Shown here: in pieces, positions 13,820-33,874 of the stretch | Layout of the letters: every line of letters starts with the position of its first letter | Position numbering within the stretch: position 1 is the first letter of the stretch | NCBI GenBank assembly: GCA_012840125.1 | Contig: DULZ01000083.1 | Span: forward strand, 1 to 33,874 | Direction of reading: 5' to 3' | From: Clostridia bacterium | GTDB taxonomy: Bacteria > Bacillota > DULZ01 | Length of the DNA: 33,874 nucleotides | The notes under the pieces: generated by a model | The model's database searches: none | What the model was told of the DNA's origin: nothing | What the model saw: the letters and a program-made list of their open reading frames with translations, nothing else | Translations under genes and position numbers: made by a program

Positions 13820-14885
13820 ACGACGCTGCAAAAGAATTCAAGCGCTATTGAGAGAAGAAGATTTAGACGCCATACTTGTTACCGGTGGATCTAACCGTTA
13901 TTACCTGAGCGGGTTTCGCGGTTCCGCCGGCTGCTTGCTGGTGACTGCCAACCAGGCATTTCTATTGACCGACGGTCGTTACGTAGATCAGGCCAAACAG
14001 CAAACCGCCTGCTGCCAAGTCCTGCATCAAGGTGCCGATTGGTATAATACCTTAAACCAGTTATTAAAAGAGCACCAGGTGAGAAAGCTGGCCTTTGAAC
14101 AGGAACACGTGAGCCACGGGGAATACCTGCGCCTGGCGGAGAAGGTGTCGGGTGCGACCCTGATCGGCAAGAGAAATTTTGTTGAGACTTTTCGTGAAAT
14201 AAAAGACGGGTCGGAACTGGAACTGATGAAAAAGGCGGCCTCTATAGCTGATCAGGCTTTCCATGACTTATTGTCCATCTTAAGACCCGGGTTAACGGAA
14301 ACGGAGGTGGCGGCTCAGCTCGAGTACCGGATGCGCCGCCTGGGCTCGGAAGGGCCTGCTTTTGATACAATTGTAGCCTCAGGGCCGCGTGCTGCCTTAC
14401 CCCATGGTACGGCTACCGACAGGAGAATTGCCCCGGGAGACTTCGTCGTCTTTGATTTTGGGGCTACCTATCAGGGCTACCGCTCTGACATGACCCGAAC
14501 GGTGGTGATCGGGCAGGCTTCGTCGAAGCAAAAGGAGATCTACCAGTTGGTGTTAAGAGCTCAACTGGCCGGCCTGCAAGCTGTGAAGGCAAACGAAACC
14601 TGTGAGAGCGTGGACAGTGCCGCCAGGGAAGTTATCGCTAAAGAAGGGTACGGGGAGTTTTTCGGGCACAGCCTGGGACACGGCGTGGGCCTGGATGTAC
14701 ATGAAAATCCACGGCTGGCACAGGGAAATAAGCTTCCTTTAAAGCCGGGTATGGTTGTCACAGTTGAACCGGGAGTATATTTAACTGACTGGGGCGGGGT
14801 TCGTATCGAGGATATGGTCCTGGTAACCGGCGACGGCTGTGAAATCTTAACCCATACATCAAAAGAATTGTTGGAGATTGCTTAA
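13809..14885 (+). CDS. pepP: Xaa-Pro aminopeptidase (M24 family)
   Basis: A 358-residue M24 peptidase that removes N-terminal residues before proline. The N-terminal creatinase-type domain (~1-125) precedes the pita-bread catalytic domain. All five metal ligands are visible: Asp216 and Asp227 ([19 protein letters not shown]), His291 ([12 protein letters not shown]), Glu320 (VEPGVYL) and Glu334 (VRIEDM). ATG 13809 has GGAAGGA upstream and is preferred over the in-frame TTG 13785. It sits between aroQ and efp; the efp partner arrangement is conserved across Firmicutes, probably because EF-P acts on proline stretches and this enzyme on proline peptides (inference). Confidence 0.94.
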
Positions 14886-25921: not shown

Positions 25922-25942
25922 TTGTTTTTTGGGGTGACAGTA

Positions 25943-26362
25943 TTGGGAAGACGACTTGCACGGGAAAAAGCTTTGCAAATACTGTTTCAAATTGACGTAG
26001 GCAGGATCCGTCCCGAAAAAGCCTTGCACTACAGCTTTCAGGAAGAAGATTTATCCAGCGATGAAAAAGAATTCGCCACAACACTGGTTCTTGGGACCTT
26101 GGAGCATCTCGAAGAAGTGGACAAGTTGATTTCCCAGCACTCCCGTGACTGGCCGTTAAACAGGATCGCCAATGTGGACCGGAATATCCTGCGCCTGGCC
26201 GTTTTTGAGTTCTTGCATGTACCCGACATTCCACCTAACGTAACTATTAATGAAGCCATAGAATTGGCCAAGGTTTTTAGCGGGGAAGGAGCCGGTGCCT
26301 TTGTCAACGGTATTCTGGACCAAATCCGGCGCCATATTGTTCAAGAACAACCGCAAGAATAA
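25943..26362 (+). CDS. nusB: Transcription antitermination factor NusB
   Basis: A 139-residue NusB, the normal size, an all-helical RNA-binding protein that works with NusE at boxA in rRNA transcription. It begins GRRLAREKALQILFQIDVG and contains WPLNRIANVDRNILRLAVFEFLHVPDIPPNVTINEAIELAKVFSGEGAGAFVNGILDQI, the family signature. The start is TTG 25943 with GGGGTGA just upstream; the frame also holds TTG 25922, which has no ribosome site. Sits between asp23 and folD as in Bacillus, with extra genes inserted. Confidence 0.95.
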   Translation: MGRRLAREKALQILFQIDVGRIRPEKALHYSFQEEDLSSDEKEFATTLVLGTLEHLEEVDKLISQHSRDWPLNRIANVDRNILRLAVFEFLHVPDIPPNVTINEAIELAKVFSGEGAGAFVNGILDQIRRHIVQEQPQE

Positions 26363-27447: not shown

Positions 27448-28287
27448 TTGTACCAGATTGTAAGAAAGAAGGTATTTTCACCAACGCTCAAGTTGATGGA
27501 CGTTCAAGCACCGGATGTGGCGCGGAATGTCAAAGCCGGTCAATTTGTGATTTTGCGCATGGACGAAATGGGCGAGCGTATTCCATTGACCGTAGCCGAC
27601 TATGACCGCGAAGCCGGTACCATCACTATTATTTTCCAAGAAGTGGGTTACTCCACCATGGCTTTAGGCAAATTGGAAGCAGGAGATTACTTATTGGACT
27701 TTGTGGGTCCATTGGGAGAGCCCACTGACGTACAAAACTTTGGCAAAGTAGTGTGTGTCGGCGGCGGGGTGGGAATTGCCCCCATTTTCCCAATTGCCAG
27801 AGCTCTTAAAGAAGCCGGTAATGAAGTGATCTCCATTATCGGTGCCCGTAATAAAGACTTGCTGTTCTGGGAAGAAGAAATGAGAGCGGTCAGTGACCGG
27901 TTGTATGTGGCTACGGATGATGGGTCTTATGGACGCCAAGGTTTCGTGACTGACATTCTAAAAGAAATAATTGAACAAGAAAAAGTGGACCGGGTTTGGG
28001 GGATCGGCCCCCTGGTGATGATGCGTGCCGTTTCGGAAGTGACCAGGCCCAGCGGCATTAAGACCATTGTGAGCATGAACCCCATCATGGTGGACGGAAC
28101 AGGCATGTGCGGCGCATGCCGGATCAGTGTTGGCAATGAAACTAAGTTCGCATGTGTTGACGGACCGGAATTTGACGGGCACTTGGTGGACTGGCAATTA
28201 GCCATCAGGCGGAGCCAGATGTACAAGGATGAAGAAAAACGGGCCATGGCCAAAGGTCAATGCGGGGGTGGATGCGGATGCCATTAA
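27448..28287 (+). CDS. nfnA: NADH-dependent reduced ferredoxin:NADP+ oxidoreductase, small subunit
   Basis: A 279-residue ferredoxin-NADP reductase-type protein. FAD domain with RIPLTVADYD; NAD-binding segment VVCVGGGVGIAPIFPIARAL; C-terminal [2Fe-2S] site VDGTGMCGACRISVG...FACVDGPEFDGHLVDW, the mixed Asp/Cys-ligated cluster of NfnA. The protein ends in a Cys-rich tail, CGGGCGCH. With NfnB it bifurcates electrons between NADPH, NAD+ and ferredoxin in the cytoplasm, supplying reductant for C1 metabolism. The start is TTG 27448 with AGGGGGGAG upstream. It overlaps nfnB by 10 bases. The leader (27351-27447) contains an AT-rich inverted repeat and a weak TATGAT (27411-27416). Confidence 0.92.
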   Translation: MYQIVRKKVFSPTLKLMDVQAPDVARNVKAGQFVILRMDEMGERIPLTVADYDREAGTITIIFQEVGYSTMALGKLEAGDYLLDFVGPLGEPTDVQNFGKVVCVGGGVGIAPIFPIARALKEAGNEVISIIGARNKDLLFWEEEMRAVSDRLYVATDDGSYGRQGFVTDILKEIIEQEKVDRVWGIGPLVMMRAVSEVTRPSGIKTIVSMNPIMVDGTGMCGACRISVGNETKFACVDGPEFDGHLVDWQLAIRRSQMYKDEEKRAMAKGQCGGGCGCH

Positions 28288-29678
28288 TTAAAGACAAAAC
28301 GCCGATGCCGGCTCAGGATGCAAAAGCCAGGATTAAAAACTTCAATGAGGTTGCCCTTGGTTATTCGGAAGAAGACGCCCTAAAAGAGGCGGAGCGCTGC
28401 ATACAATGTAAGAAGCCCGGCTGCCGCCAGGGTTGCCCCGTGCAGGTCAATATCCCCGAGTTTATTGCGAGAATTAAGGAAAAAGATTTTATCGGTGCTG
28501 CGAACAGCATTAAAGAGTACAACAATCTCCCTGCTATTTGTGGTCGAGTTTGTCCCCAGGAGAACCAGTGCGAAAAGTATTGTGTCGTAGGCAAGAAAGG
28601 AGATCCCGTCGCCATTGGACGCCTGGAACGCTTTGTGGCTGATTATGCCATGGCCAATGACAGTGCCAAACCCCAGCGCATACCCTCCAACGGCAAAAAG
28701 GTGGCCGTGGTAGGTTCCGGCCCGGCAGGTTTGACCTGTGCCGCTGACCTGCGCAAGATGGGCTATGAGGTCACCGTTTTCGAAGCCTTACACGTGCCCG
28801 GCGGCGTATTGATGTACGGTATTCCGGAATTCAGGCTTCCCAAGGCCGTAGTGCAGAAAGAAATTGACACGCTCCGGGACTTGGGTGTCGAAATTAAGGT
28901 TAACAGTGTGATCGGCAAGATTGAAACAGTCAATCAACTGCTGGAACAAGGTTATGATGCGGTGTTCATCGGTACCGGTGCCGGCTTGCCGTATTTCATG
29001 AACATTCCGGGGGAAAATTATAACGGGGTTTACTCAGCTAACGAATTCTTGACCCGGGTTAACCTGATGAAAGGTTACTTGTTCCCTGAATATGCCACCC
29101 CGGTGAAAGTAGGCCGCCGCGTAGCCGTATGCGGCGCAGGCAATGTGGCTATGGATGCTGCCAGGACTGCCTTGCGATTAGGGGCGGAAGAAGTGTACAT
29201 TGTGTACCGGAGATCCAAGGCCGAAATCCCGGCGCGTCATGAAGAACTGGAGCATGCTTTAGAGGAAGGAGTGCAGCTGGTTCTTCTCACCAGTCCGGTG
29301 GAGATCCTCGGCAATGAAGAAGGCTGGGTAACCGGTATGAAGTGCATCCGGTATGAATTAGGTGAACCCGATGAATCAGGGAGAAGAAAGCCCATACCCG
29401 TTGAAGGGTCCGAGTTCGTCATGGATGTGGATACGGTGATCATGGCCATCGGTCAAGGACCAAACCCATTAGTTCCTACCACCACGGAAGGATTGGCCAC
29501 GACGAAACGGGGCAATATTGTAGCGGACGAAGAGACAGGCCAAACGTCTCTGGAAGGTGTGTTCGCGGGCGGAGATATCGTGACCGGGGCTGCCACCGTC
29601 ATCCTGGCCATGGGTGCCGGCAAGAAGGCGGCACAAGCCATCGATGCTTATCTGAAACAGAAATCCAACGGCAATTAA
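28278..29678 (+). CDS. nfnB: NADH-dependent reduced ferredoxin:NADP+ oxidoreductase, large subunit (glutamate synthase small-subunit-like)
   Basis: A 466-residue protein like the small subunit of glutamate synthase. N-terminal cysteines for two [4Fe-4S] clusters: CIQCKKPGCRQGCPV and CGRVCPQENQCEKYC. Next a FAD site (VAVVGSGPAGLTCAADLRKMGYEVTVFE), a second Rossmann site (VAVCGAGNVAMDAARTALRLGAEEVYIVYRR), and GVFAGGDIVTGAATVILAMGAGKKAA at the end. No gltA-type partner is present, so with nfnA adjacent it is NfnB rather than glutamate synthase. ATG 28278 is chosen, with GGGGGTGG upstream; earlier in-frame ATGs (28260, 28272) lie inside the nfnA tail codons. Confidence 0.93.
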   Translation: MPLIKDKTPMPAQDAKARIKNFNEVALGYSEEDALKEAERCIQCKKPGCRQGCPVQVNIPEFIARIKEKDFIGAANSIKEYNNLPAICGRVCPQENQCEKYCVVGKKGDPVAIGRLERFVADYAMANDSAKPQRIPSNGKKVAVVGSGPAGLTCAADLRKMGYEVTVFEALHVPGGVLMYGIPEFRLPKAVVQKEIDTLRDLGVEIKVNSVIGKIETVNQLLEQGYDAVFIGTGAGLPYFMNIPGENYNGVYSANEFLTRVNLMKGYLFPEYATPVKVGRRVAVCGAGNVAMDAARTALRLGAEEVYIVYRRSKAEIPARHEELEHALEEGVQLVLLTSPVEILGNEEGWVTGMKCIRYELGEPDESGRRKPIPVEGSEFVMDVDTVIMAIGQGPNPLVPTTTEGLATTKRGNIVADEETGQTSLEGVFAGGDIVTGAATVILAMGAGKKAAQAIDAYLKQKSNGN

Positions 29679-29700
29679 CCGATTATACCTTAGTCTAGAC

Positions 29701-29727
29701 GCATCAATATTGCCACAATTTTGATGC
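29701..29727 (+). repeat. Long imperfect palindrome between nfnB and folD
   Basis: A 27-base hairpin with 11 paired bases and one T-T mismatch around a 3-base loop: GCATCAA (29701-29707) with TTGATGC (29721-29727), and inside it ATTG with CAAT. No T tract follows, so it is not a typical intrinsic terminator. It may be an operator or an mRNA processing/stability element; a promoter for folD was not recognised. Confidence 0.6.
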
Positions 29728-29805
29728 CACCCTTTGCTGGTTTTCATCAGATGAGTACCTTATATCCCGGTGGCTAAAATTACTATAAAGAAAGGGTTGA
29801 TCCGG

Positions 29806-30654
29806 TTGGCTAAAATTATTGACGGTAAGGCTATTGCGGCCGAAATCAGGGAAGAAGTAAAGGCGGAGGCCATGCAATGGAGAGAGCAGGGCATTATTCC
29901 TAAACTAGCCGTGATTCTGGTGGGCGATGATCCTGCCTCAGTAGTCTATGCCAATTCCAAGCAGAAAGCCGCGGAAAAAGTGGGGATCGACTTCGAACTG
30001 TTCCACCTGGCGGGCAGTACCCCGGAAGCCGAAGTGATTTCTTTAATTCAAAAACTGAATGATGATGCCTCCGTCCACGGAATTATGGTGGAGCTTCCTT
30101 TACCTGATCATATTTCCAAGGAAAAGGTCATGGAAGCGGTTCATCCGTTAAAGGATGTGGATGGTGTGCATCCGGTGAACCGGGGGTACATTTTAAGTGG
30201 TCAAGAAGGCTTGTTTCCCGCTACGCCCCAAAGCTGCGTAGAGATTTTGCTGCGGTCCGGTGTCGAGTTAAAGGGTAAACACGCTGTCATCGTCGGCCGT
30301 GGTGAGACAGTCGGCAAGCCTTTGGTTTTCCTATTATTAAAGCACCATCCGACCATCACCATCTGCCATTCCCGTACCGCAGATTTGGCCTACCACACCC
30401 GCCAAGCCGATATTCTCATCGCTGCCGTCGGCAAGGCCAACATGATTAAGGCCGACATGGTCAAGCCCGGCGCTGTCGTCATCGATGCCGGTATCAACGA
30501 AGTTGAGGGCGGCATCACCGGAGACGTGGATTTCGAAGCGGTCAAGGAGGTAGCCGGTGCCATTACCCCTGTGCCCGGCGGAGTGGGTTCTTTGACCACG
30601 GCCCTCTTGTTCAGGAACGTATTGCTGGGATTAAAGCTCCAGCAAAAGAAATGA
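29806..30654 (+). CDS. folD: Methylenetetrahydrofolate dehydrogenase (FolD), cyclohydrolase residue replaced
   Basis: A 282-residue FolD. The dehydrogenase oxidises methylene-THF to methenyl-THF, or runs in reverse in the methyl branch of acetogenesis. Tyr48 and Lys52 (SVVYANSKQK) and Asp119 (KDVDGVHPVN) are kept. Glu96 stands where Gln is expected in the conserved V-Q-L-P-L-P segment. GRGETVGKPLVFLLL holds the nucleotide-binding loop, and TPVPGGVGSLTTALL ends it. TTG 29806 is the better start because AAAGGG lies upstream; GTG 29770 would add 12 residues and has no ribosome site. The 12-base TGGCTAAAATTA occurs at both candidate starts. fchA follows 22 bases after the stop. Confidence 0.93.
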   Translation: MAKIIDGKAIAAEIREEVKAEAMQWREQGIIPKLAVILVGDDPASVVYANSKQKAAEKVGIDFELFHLAGSTPEAEVISLIQKLNDDASVHGIMVELPLPDHISKEKVMEAVHPLKDVDGVHPVNRGYILSGQEGLFPATPQSCVEILLRSGVELKGKHAVIVGRGETVGKPLVFLLLKHHPTITICHSRTADLAYHTRQADILIAAVGKANMIKADMVKPGAVVIDAGINEVEGGITGDVDFEAVKEVAGAITPVPGGVGSLTTALLFRNVLLGLKLQQKK

Positions 30655-30676
30655 TTTTTCCCGGGAGGTTGCTTTG

Positions 30677-31306
30677 ATGAGTAACATTTTTGATTCTTCT
30701 TTGCGTCAAGTATTAGAAGCTTCCGCTTCTGATGCTCCTACGCCAGGCGGCGGCAGTGTGTCCGCCATTGTGGGAAGTTTCGGGGTAGCCATGGTTTCCA
30801 TGGTCGCCAATTTGACCACAGGCAAGGAAAAATATAAAGATGTGGAACCACAAGTAAAGGCAATTCTGGAGAAAACCAGTAGAATTATGGCCCGCCTAGA
30901 GGAGCTCGTGGCGGAAGATATGCAGGTTTTCGGCAAGTTCATGGAAGCGCTGAAAATGCCAAAGGATACGGAAGAACAAAAGAGCCTGCGGGCCGGCAAA
31001 ATGCAGGAAGCCCTCAAAGCGGCTACCGATACCCCGATGGAAATAGCTCGGGTGTGCTTGGAAGGCCTGGAATTGGCTGCCGAGCTGTCCTCCATCGGAA
31101 ACAAGGGAGCCATTAGCGACGTGGGAGTGGCAGCCTACGTGGCGGAAGCAGCTTTAAACAGCGTCCTGTTGAGCGTGGATATTAACATCCCCAGCATCAA
31201 AGATGCTGAATACGTGGACCAGGTCCAACAAGAGAAATATGCCCTTATCGTGAAAGCCGCCCAGTTGAGAGAAAAGGCTGTAGCACAAGTAAGGGACAGG
31301 ATGTAA
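30677..31306 (+). CDS. fchA: Methenyltetrahydrofolate cyclohydrolase, FTCD/cyclodeaminase family
   Basis: A 209-residue helical protein of the formiminotransferase-cyclodeaminase family. The N-terminal block APTPGGGSVSAIVGSFGVAMVSMVANLTTGKEKY, with its glycine loop, is diagnostic, and ELSSIGNKGAISDVGVAAYVAEAALNSVLLSVDINIPSIKD ends the fold. Clostridial FchA makes or opens methenyl-THF/10-formyl-THF, here beside folD. GGGAGG at 30662-30667 serves ATG 30677; TTG 30674 is also in frame. Could instead be a cyclodeaminase for histidine/purine breakdown, but no formiminotransferase neighbour is seen. Confidence 0.9.
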   Translation: MSNIFDSSLRQVLEASASDAPTPGGGSVSAIVGSFGVAMVSMVANLTTGKEKYKDVEPQVKAILEKTSRIMARLEELVAEDMQVFGKFMEALKMPKDTEEQKSLRAGKMQEALKAATDTPMEIARVCLEGLELAAELSSIGNKGAISDVGVAAYVAEAALNSVLLSVDINIPSIKDAEYVDQVQQEKYALIVKAAQLREKAVAQVRDRM

Positions 31307-31308
31307 CT

Positions 31309-32559
31309 ATGTTGTTTCGCGCAGAGCCAGTGAAGTGTTGGCAGGTTTCGGAACTGAATAATTACCTGAAGGAGCTGTTGTCCAGCAATCCTTTCCTGTC
31401 CAACCTGTGGATTAAGGGGGAGATTTCCAACCTGCGGCAGCCCGGATCCGGTCACCTGTTTTTCACCTTAAAGGACCGGACCGGCTCTATCCGTGCCGTC
31501 ATGTTTCGCTCCAAAGCTGTGGAACTGCGCGTACCCTTGCGAGATGGGATGGAGGTCCTGATAAGGGCCTCCCTTTCCATTTACGAAAGGGACGGTGTTT
31601 ACCAGCTCTACGTAGAAGAAGTGCACCCATTAGGCGTGGGGGATTTGCACCGGGCTTTTGAAATGCTGAAGGCCCAGTTAGAAAAGGAAGGGCTGTTTCG
31701 ACCGGAGCGCAAAAAGAAACTGCCTTACCTGCCGCGCCGGATCGGTTTGGTCACTTCCACCACGGGCGCAGCCATAAGGGATATCCTGACAGTCTTGCTG
31801 CAAAGATGTCCCTCTTTGGATATTGTGGTGGCCCCGGCCCTCGTGCAGGGTGCCGGTGCGCCTGATTCTATTGCCCATGCTTTGGCGCTCTTGAACCGCT
31901 TCGGTCAGGTAGATGTGATTATTGTGGCCAGGGGAGGAGGATCCCTGGAGGAATTGTGGGCTTTCAATACGGAACAAGTGGCCAGGAGTATTGCTGCTTC
32001 AACCATTCCGGTGGTAACGGGAGTAGGACATGAAACTGATTTTACCATCGCTGACTTGGTGGCGGACCGCCGGGCTCCCACTCCTACGGCTGCTGCGGCT
32101 CTGGTGGTACCTGACCTCCGTGAAGAACTGGATAAACTGGACGTAAAACTCAAGAGAGCCCACCGCAGCCTGGTGAGTCTATTGACCAAAAAGCAGCAGC
32201 ACCTGCATGGGATTGGCAAGTATTCAATCCTGGCACGACCGGAACAGCTTTTTGCCCGGCAGAAACAGCGGCTTGAAGCCACCCAGCACAAACTGCATCT
32301 GATCATTAAACAGTATTTCCAGGAACGGCACAATAAACTGGGTGTGCAGTGGCACAAACTGGATGCTTTGAGCCCTTTGAAGGTACTGCAAAGAGGTTTT
32401 TCCATTTGCCGGGACGAGCAAGGCAAAATAATCACCAGTGCCGCTCAAGTGGTGGTGGGCCAGCTGTTGGAAGTAAAACTGAAAGAAGGCAGCTTGGACT
32501 GCCGGGTAATGGGGGTGAAAGAATCTAGTGCCCAAGGACAACCGGAACCTAACGTATGA
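31309..32559 (+). CDS. xseA: Exodeoxyribonuclease VII large subunit
   Basis: A 416-residue XseA. N-terminal OB domain (WIKGEISNLRQPGSGHLFFTLKDRTGSIRAVMFRS), catalytic domain beginning RIGLVTSTTGAAIRDILTVLLQRCP, then the DVIIVARGGGSLEELWAFNTEQVARSI and PVVTGVGHETDFTIADLVADRRAPTPTAAA blocks, followed by a long helical coiled region (~270-360). Degrades single-stranded DNA with XseB. It starts 2 bases after the fchA stop and overlaps xseB by 32 bases. Confidence 0.95.
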   Translation: MLFRAEPVKCWQVSELNNYLKELLSSNPFLSNLWIKGEISNLRQPGSGHLFFTLKDRTGSIRAVMFRSKAVELRVPLRDGMEVLIRASLSIYERDGVYQLYVEEVHPLGVGDLHRAFEMLKAQLEKEGLFRPERKKKLPYLPRRIGLVTSTTGAAIRDILTVLLQRCPSLDIVVAPALVQGAGAPDSIAHALALLNRFGQVDVIIVARGGGSLEELWAFNTEQVARSIAASTIPVVTGVGHETDFTIADLVADRRAPTPTAAAALVVPDLREELDKLDVKLKRAHRSLVSLLTKKQQHLHGIGKYSILARPEQLFARQKQRLEATQHKLHLIIKQYFQERHNKLGVQWHKLDALSPLKVLQRGFSICRDEQGKIITSAAQVVVGQLLEVKLKEGSLDCRVMGVKESSAQGQPEPNV

Positions 32560-32770
32560 AGAAGCGTCGCAGCGGTTGGAAGCTATCGTGCAGCGCCTGG
32601 AACAGGAGGAACTGAGCCTGGACGAAGCCCTGGATCTATTTGAAGAAGCCGTCATTTTGGCCAACTATTGCAGGAAAACACTATCTGCTGCGGAACAGCG
32701 GCTGTCGGTCCTGCTGGAAAAGGAAGACGGCCGGCTATTACTGGAACCTTTTTCCCTATCGGAGGAATAA
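32528..32770 (+). CDS. xseB: Exodeoxyribonuclease VII small subunit
   Basis: An 80-residue XseB with the family pattern LTYEEASQRLEAIVQRLEQEELSLDEALDLFEEAVILANYCRKTLSAAEQRL. The start is GTG 32528, inside the end of xseA, with GGGGGTGA about 10 bases upstream. Many small subunits bind one large subunit; the tight overlap implies coupled translation. Confidence 0.94.
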   Translation: MPKDNRNLTYEEASQRLEAIVQRLEQEELSLDEALDLFEEAVILANYCRKTLSAAEQRLSVLLEKEDGRLLLEPFSLSEE

Positions 32771-32772
32771 CC

Positions 32773-33672
32773 ATGATGAACATCCAACAATACTTGCAAG
32801 ATAGAAAAAAGATGGTGGAGGAAGCGCTTTTCAAGCACTTGCCCCCGCCAAATACCTACCCGGCAGTAATTCATGAAGCCATGCATTACAGCTTGGCCGC
32901 CGGAGGCAAAAGATTGCGGCCTATCCTGGTACTGGCTTCCGCAGAAGCAATCGGCCATTGCGACCCGGCAGCCATGGCCCCCTTATATTGTGCCGTGGAA
33001 TACATCCATACATACTCGCTGATTCATGATGACCTACCGGCGATGGATGATGATGACTTCAGAAGGGGCAAGCCCTCTTGTCATAAAGCTTTCGGGGAAG
33101 GAATCGCCATTTTGGCCGGAGATGCCTTACTAACTTATGCATTTGAACTGCTAACCCATTTAGCTCCACCCGAAGGTGTTTTCCCGGAAGAATTAGTGGT
33201 AAGAATCATCAAGGATATCAGCTGCAGCATTGGAACCACAGGTTTAATCGGCGGGCAAGTGGTAGACCTGCAATCAGAAGCCGTCCGGGTGGACCTGGAT
33301 ACCATAACCTATATTCACCGGCACAAGACCGGCGCTTTGTTTAAGACTTGTATCCTTTCCGGTGCCAGGCTGGCCGGGGCTACGGAGAAAGAATTAGAAC
33401 ATTTAGCTAACTACGCCGATGCCTTCGGCATGGCCTTTCAGATTATCGATGATATTCTAGACATCGAAGGAGATCCTGCCTTGCTCGGCAAACCAACCGG
33501 AAGTGATGCCAAGAAGCAAAAAGCTACTTATCCCGGTCTAATGGGTATTGAGGCAGCGCGGGCAAAAGCCGAAGACTGTATCAGCCAAGCGGTACGGGCT
33601 CTGGAATCTTTCGGAGAACAAGCCGAAGCATTGCGACAGCTGGCCGTCTATATTGGACAAAGAGAGATCTGA
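32773..33672 (+). CDS. ispA: Farnesyl diphosphate synthase (polyprenyl synthetase family)
   Basis: A 299-residue prenyl synthase that condenses IPP with DMAPP and GPP. First aspartate-rich motif at residues 86-92 (DDLPAMD), second at 226-230 (DDILD), and GGKRLRPILVLASAEA near residue 46. ATG 32773 has GGAGG (32761-32765) at 7 bases spacing; the frame opens earlier inside xseB, but that is an artefact. It ends the conserved folD-xseA-xseB-ispA run, after which dxs would be expected beyond the window. Confidence 0.95.
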   Translation: MMNIQQYLQDRKKMVEEALFKHLPPPNTYPAVIHEAMHYSLAAGGKRLRPILVLASAEAIGHCDPAAMAPLYCAVEYIHTYSLIHDDLPAMDDDDFRRGKPSCHKAFGEGIAILAGDALLTYAFELLTHLAPPEGVFPEELVVRIIKDISCSIGTTGLIGGQVVDLQSEAVRVDLDTITYIHRHKTGALFKTCILSGARLAGATEKELEHLANYADAFGMAFQIIDDILDIEGDPALLGKPTGSDAKKQKATYPGLMGIEAARAKAEDCISQAVRALESFGEQAEALRQLAVYIGQREI

Positions 33673-33684
33673 TTCTCTTGCCCC

Positions 33685-33713
33685 TTGCTCTTTAGCCTAT
33701 TCGGTGGTATAAT
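33685..33713 (+). promoter_or_regulatory. Promoter downstream of ispA
   Basis: An extended -10, TGG followed by a perfect TATAAT (33708-33713), with TTGCTC (33685-33690, 3 of 6) 17 bases upstream. It begins 13 bases after the ispA stop and would start a transcript near 33720, in the putative OLE RNA. Confidence 0.65.
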
Positions 33714-33719
33714 GCTTAG

Positions 33720-33874
33720 TCGAAATAGGCGTACATTATTTCTAAAAATGAGTGGTGCAGTATTCTAGTCAGAATGGCCAATTTTGAAGACGGGCCTAAA
33801 AATCCGTCAAAGGGCACATCGATGAAGTTCCTGGTGCTGGCTGCCGATGCCCCGTCGGGGGTTGGTGCTGGGAG
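33720..33874 (+). ncRNA. Probable 5' part of OLE RNA, truncated by the window edge
   Basis: No start codon with a good ribosome site or sizeable reading frame is seen from 33720 to the end. The stretch instead has several possible stems: ATTCT/AGAAT (33762-33775), GACGG/CCGTC (33789-33808), GGGC...ATCG with CGAT...GCCC (33812-33852), and CCCC-GTC-GGGG (33850-33860), some mutually exclusive. GGTGCTGG occurs twice (33833-33840, 33864-33871). OLE RNA is a ~600-nt membrane-associated RNA whose gene lies right after ispA and before the OapA and dxs genes in many extremophilic or anaerobic Firmicutes; this is exactly that slot. The call is mostly from position. I did not run a covariance model, and another leader RNA remains possible. 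Confidence 0.6.

Follow-up and report, generated by a model that had tools for sequence, protein, structure and literature searches.

A stretch at the 3′ end of the window (the whole of the analyzed DNA, 33,874 nt from a Clostridia bacterium) is almost certainly the beginning of a complete OLE RNA gene of the full-length type, the remainder of which lies on a second contig, C29, of the same assembly. OLE is a large, stress-related bacterial RNA that is abundant and dimerizes (PMC12286853). It binds the protein OapA and localizes to the membrane, and H. halodurans without OLE is sensitive to alcohol, cold, Mg2+, and poor carbon sources (PMC12265935). The class is already known, and the locus is one more, ordinary complete example of it. 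It is a new locus from an uncultured Clostridia lineage, in which the published rules (OapA next door, MpfA absent) hold.

Identity of the RNA and its continuation on a second contig

In a scan of all 4227 Rfam families, RF01071 (OLE RNA) was the sole match in the window (144 bits, E 2.4e-38, the gathering score being 50 bits). The match corresponds to model positions 1–139 of 616, and its 3′ cut is due to the contig end alone. A permissive rescan of the window gave no further Rfam matches at E values up to 0.1, and no tRNA genes were found in the window. The initial annotation, made from the letters of the DNA, had described about 155 bases after the promoter as lacking a credible reading frame and had proposed that the window is cut inside OLE. 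The first statement was confirmed, no such frame being present at 33673–33874, and the second was borne out by the covariance-model check it had suggested, the match reaching the window edge and the remainder being present on the adjoining contig. The coordinates of the features are listed in Table 1.

Table 1. Features of the OLE locus in the window and on contig C29
Feature	Position	Strand	Evidence or remark
nusB	25922–26362	+	Pfam NusB, E 2.9e-39
folD	29770–30654	+	Pfam THF_DHG_CYH_C, E 1.7e-61
xseA (exonuclease VII large subunit)	31309–32559	+	Pfam Exonuc_VII_L, E 4.8e-97
xseB (exonuclease VII small subunit)	32528–32770	+	Pfam Exonuc_VII_S, E 1.8e-18
ispA (polyprenyl synthetase), directly upstream of ole	32773–33672	+	Pfam polyprenyl_synt, E 3.4e-60; stop TGA 33670–33672
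ole promoter	33685–33713	+	−35 TTGCTC 33685–33690, 17-bp spacer, extended −10 TGGTATAAT 33705–33713
5′ part of OLE RNA	33736–33874	+	RF01071; continues on C29
First OLE hairpin (helix 1)	33789–33808	+	33789–33794 pairs with 33803–33808 around conserved CCUAAAAA loop; RF01071 structure
Equivalents of H. halodurans OapC kink-turn U84, C85	33819–33820	+	Alignment
Long OLE hairpin (helix 2)	33828–33873	+	RF01071 structure; arms carry repeated GGTGCTGG
oapA, 196 aa	C29:625–1215		Directly after OLE
dxs	C29:1218–3098		After oapA

The window comprises contig C83 to its end, in an assembly of 2.47 Mb and 106 contigs that is 97% complete. A whole-genome search for OLE returned a single match, which begins at base 1 of C29 (model positions 13–616, 610 nt, 556.8 bits, E 4.8e-162) and contains all later regions of the model, model positions 1–12 being located in the window and not on C29. 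Bases 1–127 of C29 are letter-for-letter identical to window positions 33748–33874, and this region is matched at two places only in the genome, i.e., the end of C83 and the start of C29. An exact overlap of 127 bases at two contig ends is what would be left at a branch when a de Bruijn assembler is run with k = 127. Because the overlap fits such a branch, C83 and C29 are most likely neighbors, as judged from overlap and synteny rather than reads. A second OLE copy as the cause of the contig break was ruled out, as the genome has one copy only.

With regard to the gene neighborhood, an exact nusB-folD-xseA-xseB-ispA-OLE context had been claimed. The order xseA-xseB-ispA-OLE-oapA-dxs stands, but the order further upstream is interrupted by an NfnAB-like pair between nusB and folD and by a formiminotransferase-cyclodeaminase-family gene between folD and xseA. 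The genes by which an OLE neighborhood is recognized in Bacillota (isoprenoid, xse, folD, and nusB genes) are all present. In related loci, OLE is followed by an oapA orthologue, and the upstream gene is usually an open reading frame of 290–310 aa, the size of ispA. On C29, dxs is followed by genes for a TlyA-type methyltransferase, NAD kinase, MnmM, and ArgR. As a separate observation, the content of window positions 27448–31306 (the NfnAB-like oxidoreductase pair, folD, and the formiminotransferase-cyclodeaminase-family gene), within the nusB–xseA neighborhood, suggests folate C1 metabolism.

Structure and covariation of OLE RNA

The secondary structure used here was that of Rfam RF01071 and was not derived from the sequences compared. 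In the OLE RNA of this organism, 153 of the 158 model pairs are standard and 5 are non-standard. Compared with the nearest relative (RNA 90% identical), 4 pairs have changed on both sides with pairing kept. In 32 OLE sequences drawn from many families, 86% of cells are paired, and both-side changes occur in 117 pairs versus 83 in shuffles, none of 500 shuffles reaching 117. The covariation score over the same 32 sequences is 0.446, versus 0.195 for shuffles and 0.10–0.15 for slid structures. Both the length (610 nt, against about 600 nt for the class) and the ornate covarying structure are those of OLE.

In the window, helix 1 has 99.5% of cells paired and both-side changes in 2 of its 6 pairs, and helix 2 has 95.8% of cells paired and both-side changes in 11 of 20 pairs. 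The stems and the repeat that had been noticed after ispA are present. The repeat, GGTGCTGG, is found at 33833–33840 and 33864–33871, on opposite arms of the long hairpin, and has four further occurrences elsewhere in the window; since the stem is rich in G-U pairs, its arms carry two copies, and the repeat is a by-product of one long hairpin. In the OapC kink-turn, the equivalent of C85 is invariant in the alignment while that of U84 varies, the numbering having been deduced from the OLE78-290 primer (PMC12054373) and from named mutants (PMC9723947).

Two other readings of the window end may be weighed against an intact OLE gene. The stretch might be no more than an ordinary leader or intergenic region belonging to the next gene in the operon, its stems being due to chance, and the thermodynamic fold of the single strand, taken alone, beats shuffles only moderately (z −2.2). 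This reading is exceedingly improbable given the covariance-model E values for the window and the adjoining contig, the strong covariation over the 32 sequences, and the strict nucleotide conservation of the unpaired stretches. It is also conceivable that the locus is an OLE remnant, by truncation or by decay, in an organism without working OLE, as the copy in the window is truncated and decayed OLE loci exist (G016, see below). The chance of this is very small: all helices of the remaining RNA are present on the adjoining contig, where oapA is intact, and the exact overlap of the contig ends would point to assembly, not decay.

A conserved extended −10 element upstream of ole

The TATAAT at 33708–33713 that had been reported 35 bases past the ispA stop was found as described, and a TG at 33705–33706 precedes it, giving a perfect extended −10. 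The best −35, TTGCTC, is poor (3/6 consensus), so that a promoter/terminator consensus scan, which requires 4/6 in the −35, did not list the site. When the 120 bases are shuffled, 0.7% of the shuffled sequences reach an equally high combined promoter score. Within the 34-kb window, the 9-mer TGNTATAAT has one further copy on the + strand, at 14040, and none on the − strand.

Among 93 distinct loci, which have diverse flanking bases and are not phylogenetically independent, 62 carry the same 9-mer no more than 60 nt upstream of the OLE core; the core of each locus was located by motif. In control stretches further up and inside OLE, outside oapA, it was found in 0–1 of about 92. Extending the distance to 120 nt upstream gave 66 of the 93 loci, whereas dinucleotide-preserving shuffles gave 1.0 on average and never more than 4. 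Other features common to the aligned ole promoters are TTGAA within the −35 region and a T located two bases ahead of the TG. At the present locus, the −10 box lies 46 nt from the core motif, toward the long end of the distribution (median about 30). In addition, eight TGNTATAAT matches were detected 720–840 nt downstream of the core, in the oapA coding range; these probably come from the conserved GI(I)FD codons of oapA (GGT ATA ATT TTT GAT).

It was reported that ole of H. halodurans has its own promoter inside a large operon (PMC9723947). Because TGNTATAAT lies upstream of so many OLE cores and is nearly absent from the controls, transcription of ole from a promoter of its own is probable throughout these lineages and not only in H. 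halodurans, as judged from sequence conservation. A rival account, which concerns how OLE is produced and leaves the identity of the RNA untouched, is that OLE is made only via processing of a long nusB-to-dxs transcript, the TATAAT being incidental. The H. halodurans cluster is indeed transcribed as one polycistronic RNA from which OLE is presumably processed (PMC12265935; PMC9723947), and the −35 at the present locus is poor. Such an account is nevertheless unlikely in view of the perfect extended −10 close to the OLE core in most loci and almost nowhere else nearby, and of the promoter reported for H. halodurans ole. An own promoter for ole is therefore preferred, and there is a good chance that ole generally forms a transcription unit of its own in Clostridia and Bacilli, with a strong extended −10 housekeeping promoter set in a conserved cluster and OLE levels uncoupled from those of the neighbors. 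The conserved element would offer a concrete reason for OLE to be abundant while its neighbors need not be, and it is simple and testable.

What was observed at this locus (the sequence and structure of OLE, its genomic position, the genes for its partners, and the conserved promoter element) can be combined into a mode of action, for which expression, dimer, membrane location, and function are taken by analogy from studies of H. halodurans and C. acetobutylicum. Briefly, RNA polymerase would probably start near 33720 from the extended −10 of ole and yield an RNA of about 610–630 nt; transcription reading through from ispA is also likely, as is a long transcript spanning ole, oapA, and dxs. 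The RNA would adopt the OLE fold and dimerize. OapA, the product of the next gene, would hold it at the membrane, together with OapB- and OapC-type RNA-binding proteins, and the complex may act in adaptation to stress, such as alcohol, cold, Mg2+, and poor carbon sources.

Partner proteins, distribution, and comparison with known OLE systems

The initial annotation had anticipated that oapA, encoding a small multi-pass membrane protein, would be the next gene and that the organism belongs to the OLE-bearing group. Both expectations are supported: the gene directly after OLE encodes a 196-aa hydrophobic protein, is orthologous to the gene following OLE in relatives, and precedes dxs, and the RF01071 match is thus accompanied by oapA and dxs on the adjoining contig. 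Two strong and one marginal hydrophobic segments were predicted from its sequence (Kyte-Doolittle). The protein is 76% identical to that of the nearest relative and 34–51% identical to the others in the alignment, all of which are encoded directly after OLE. It has no match in Pfam or NCBIfam; since no family model in them names OapA, its identity rests on position and orthologues. A search of the OapA profile against the PDB found nothing. The nearest named genomes by OapA are those of two uncultured Clostridia MAGs, AS22ysBPME_114 and AS09scLD_108.

Candidates for the other known partners were also detected. A gene located between map and infA encodes a KOW-like OapB candidate with a match to 'OLE-associated protein B' (PDB 7k9b, E 1.7e-8), and an L7Ae-type OapC candidate, encoded between rpoC and rpsL, matches YbxF (4lck, E 2e-18). 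YbxF has been renamed OapC in H. halodurans (PMC9723947). A bS21 gene is present in the genome. OapB and OapC are not required in all OLE-bearing species.

Of the 61 genomes searched, 48 have OLE, the present one among them. OLE and MpfA have been described as anticorrelated, OLE-bearing species being without an MpfA/CNNM exporter. A CNNM/MpfA Mg2+ exporter was not found in the present genome, and over the 61 genomes a full-length CNNM protein (E < 1e-20) occurs in 10 of the 13 without OLE versus 15 of the 48 with OLE (Fisher p 0.004, uncorrected for kinship), which is in line with the published anticorrelation. In about 20 relatives, the gene adjacent to OLE is a weak match to the Pfam CNNM profile (PF01595), and this fits the published relationship between OapA and MpfA.

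Several unusual loci were encountered among the genomes. A decaying ole-oapA locus is present in G016 (contig C15, locus L120:1543–2523), where OLE scores only 169.9 bits with regions lost, oapA is fragmented and has stops, and a full-length MpfA/CNNM protein is encoded in the same genome; this locus, in an MpfA-bearing relative, is a natural case in which to study how the OLE complex is lost and replaced. An OapA-like protein (45–48% identical) adjoins a DDE transposase in a MAG with the label Planctomycetota (L054:2680–3477); no OLE was found in this locus or, by whole-genome search, in its genome, and the locus may be a misbinned short contig. OLE and oapA were also found in MAGs labelled Actinomycetota (L058, L089), which would be explained by horizontal transfer or misassignment, as published for non-Bacillota matches. 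In G002, OLE is in pieces on two contigs (C108:3428–3856 and C5:60287–60550) with part of the model present twice, probably due to an assembly error or a strain mixture.

Compared with the CNNM domain of MpfA-type exporters, OapA is much shorter (about 200 aa, versus about 420–460 aa for the full-length CNNM proteins found). With regard to the H. halodurans OLE ribonucleoprotein (OLE, OapA, OapB, OapC, and bS21), candidate genes for all five components are present, and no MpfA-type exporter was found; the OapB candidate is a distant match to the solved OapB. The locus is the same as the full-length OLE type described by Fernando and Breaker in 2024 (PMC11332333) in that the whole model is covered, the helices shortened or missing in variants 1 and 2 are present, and oapA comes next in an isoprenoid/xse/folD neighborhood. 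Apart from the long leader between the −10 and the core, it differs from that type in sequence divergence only.
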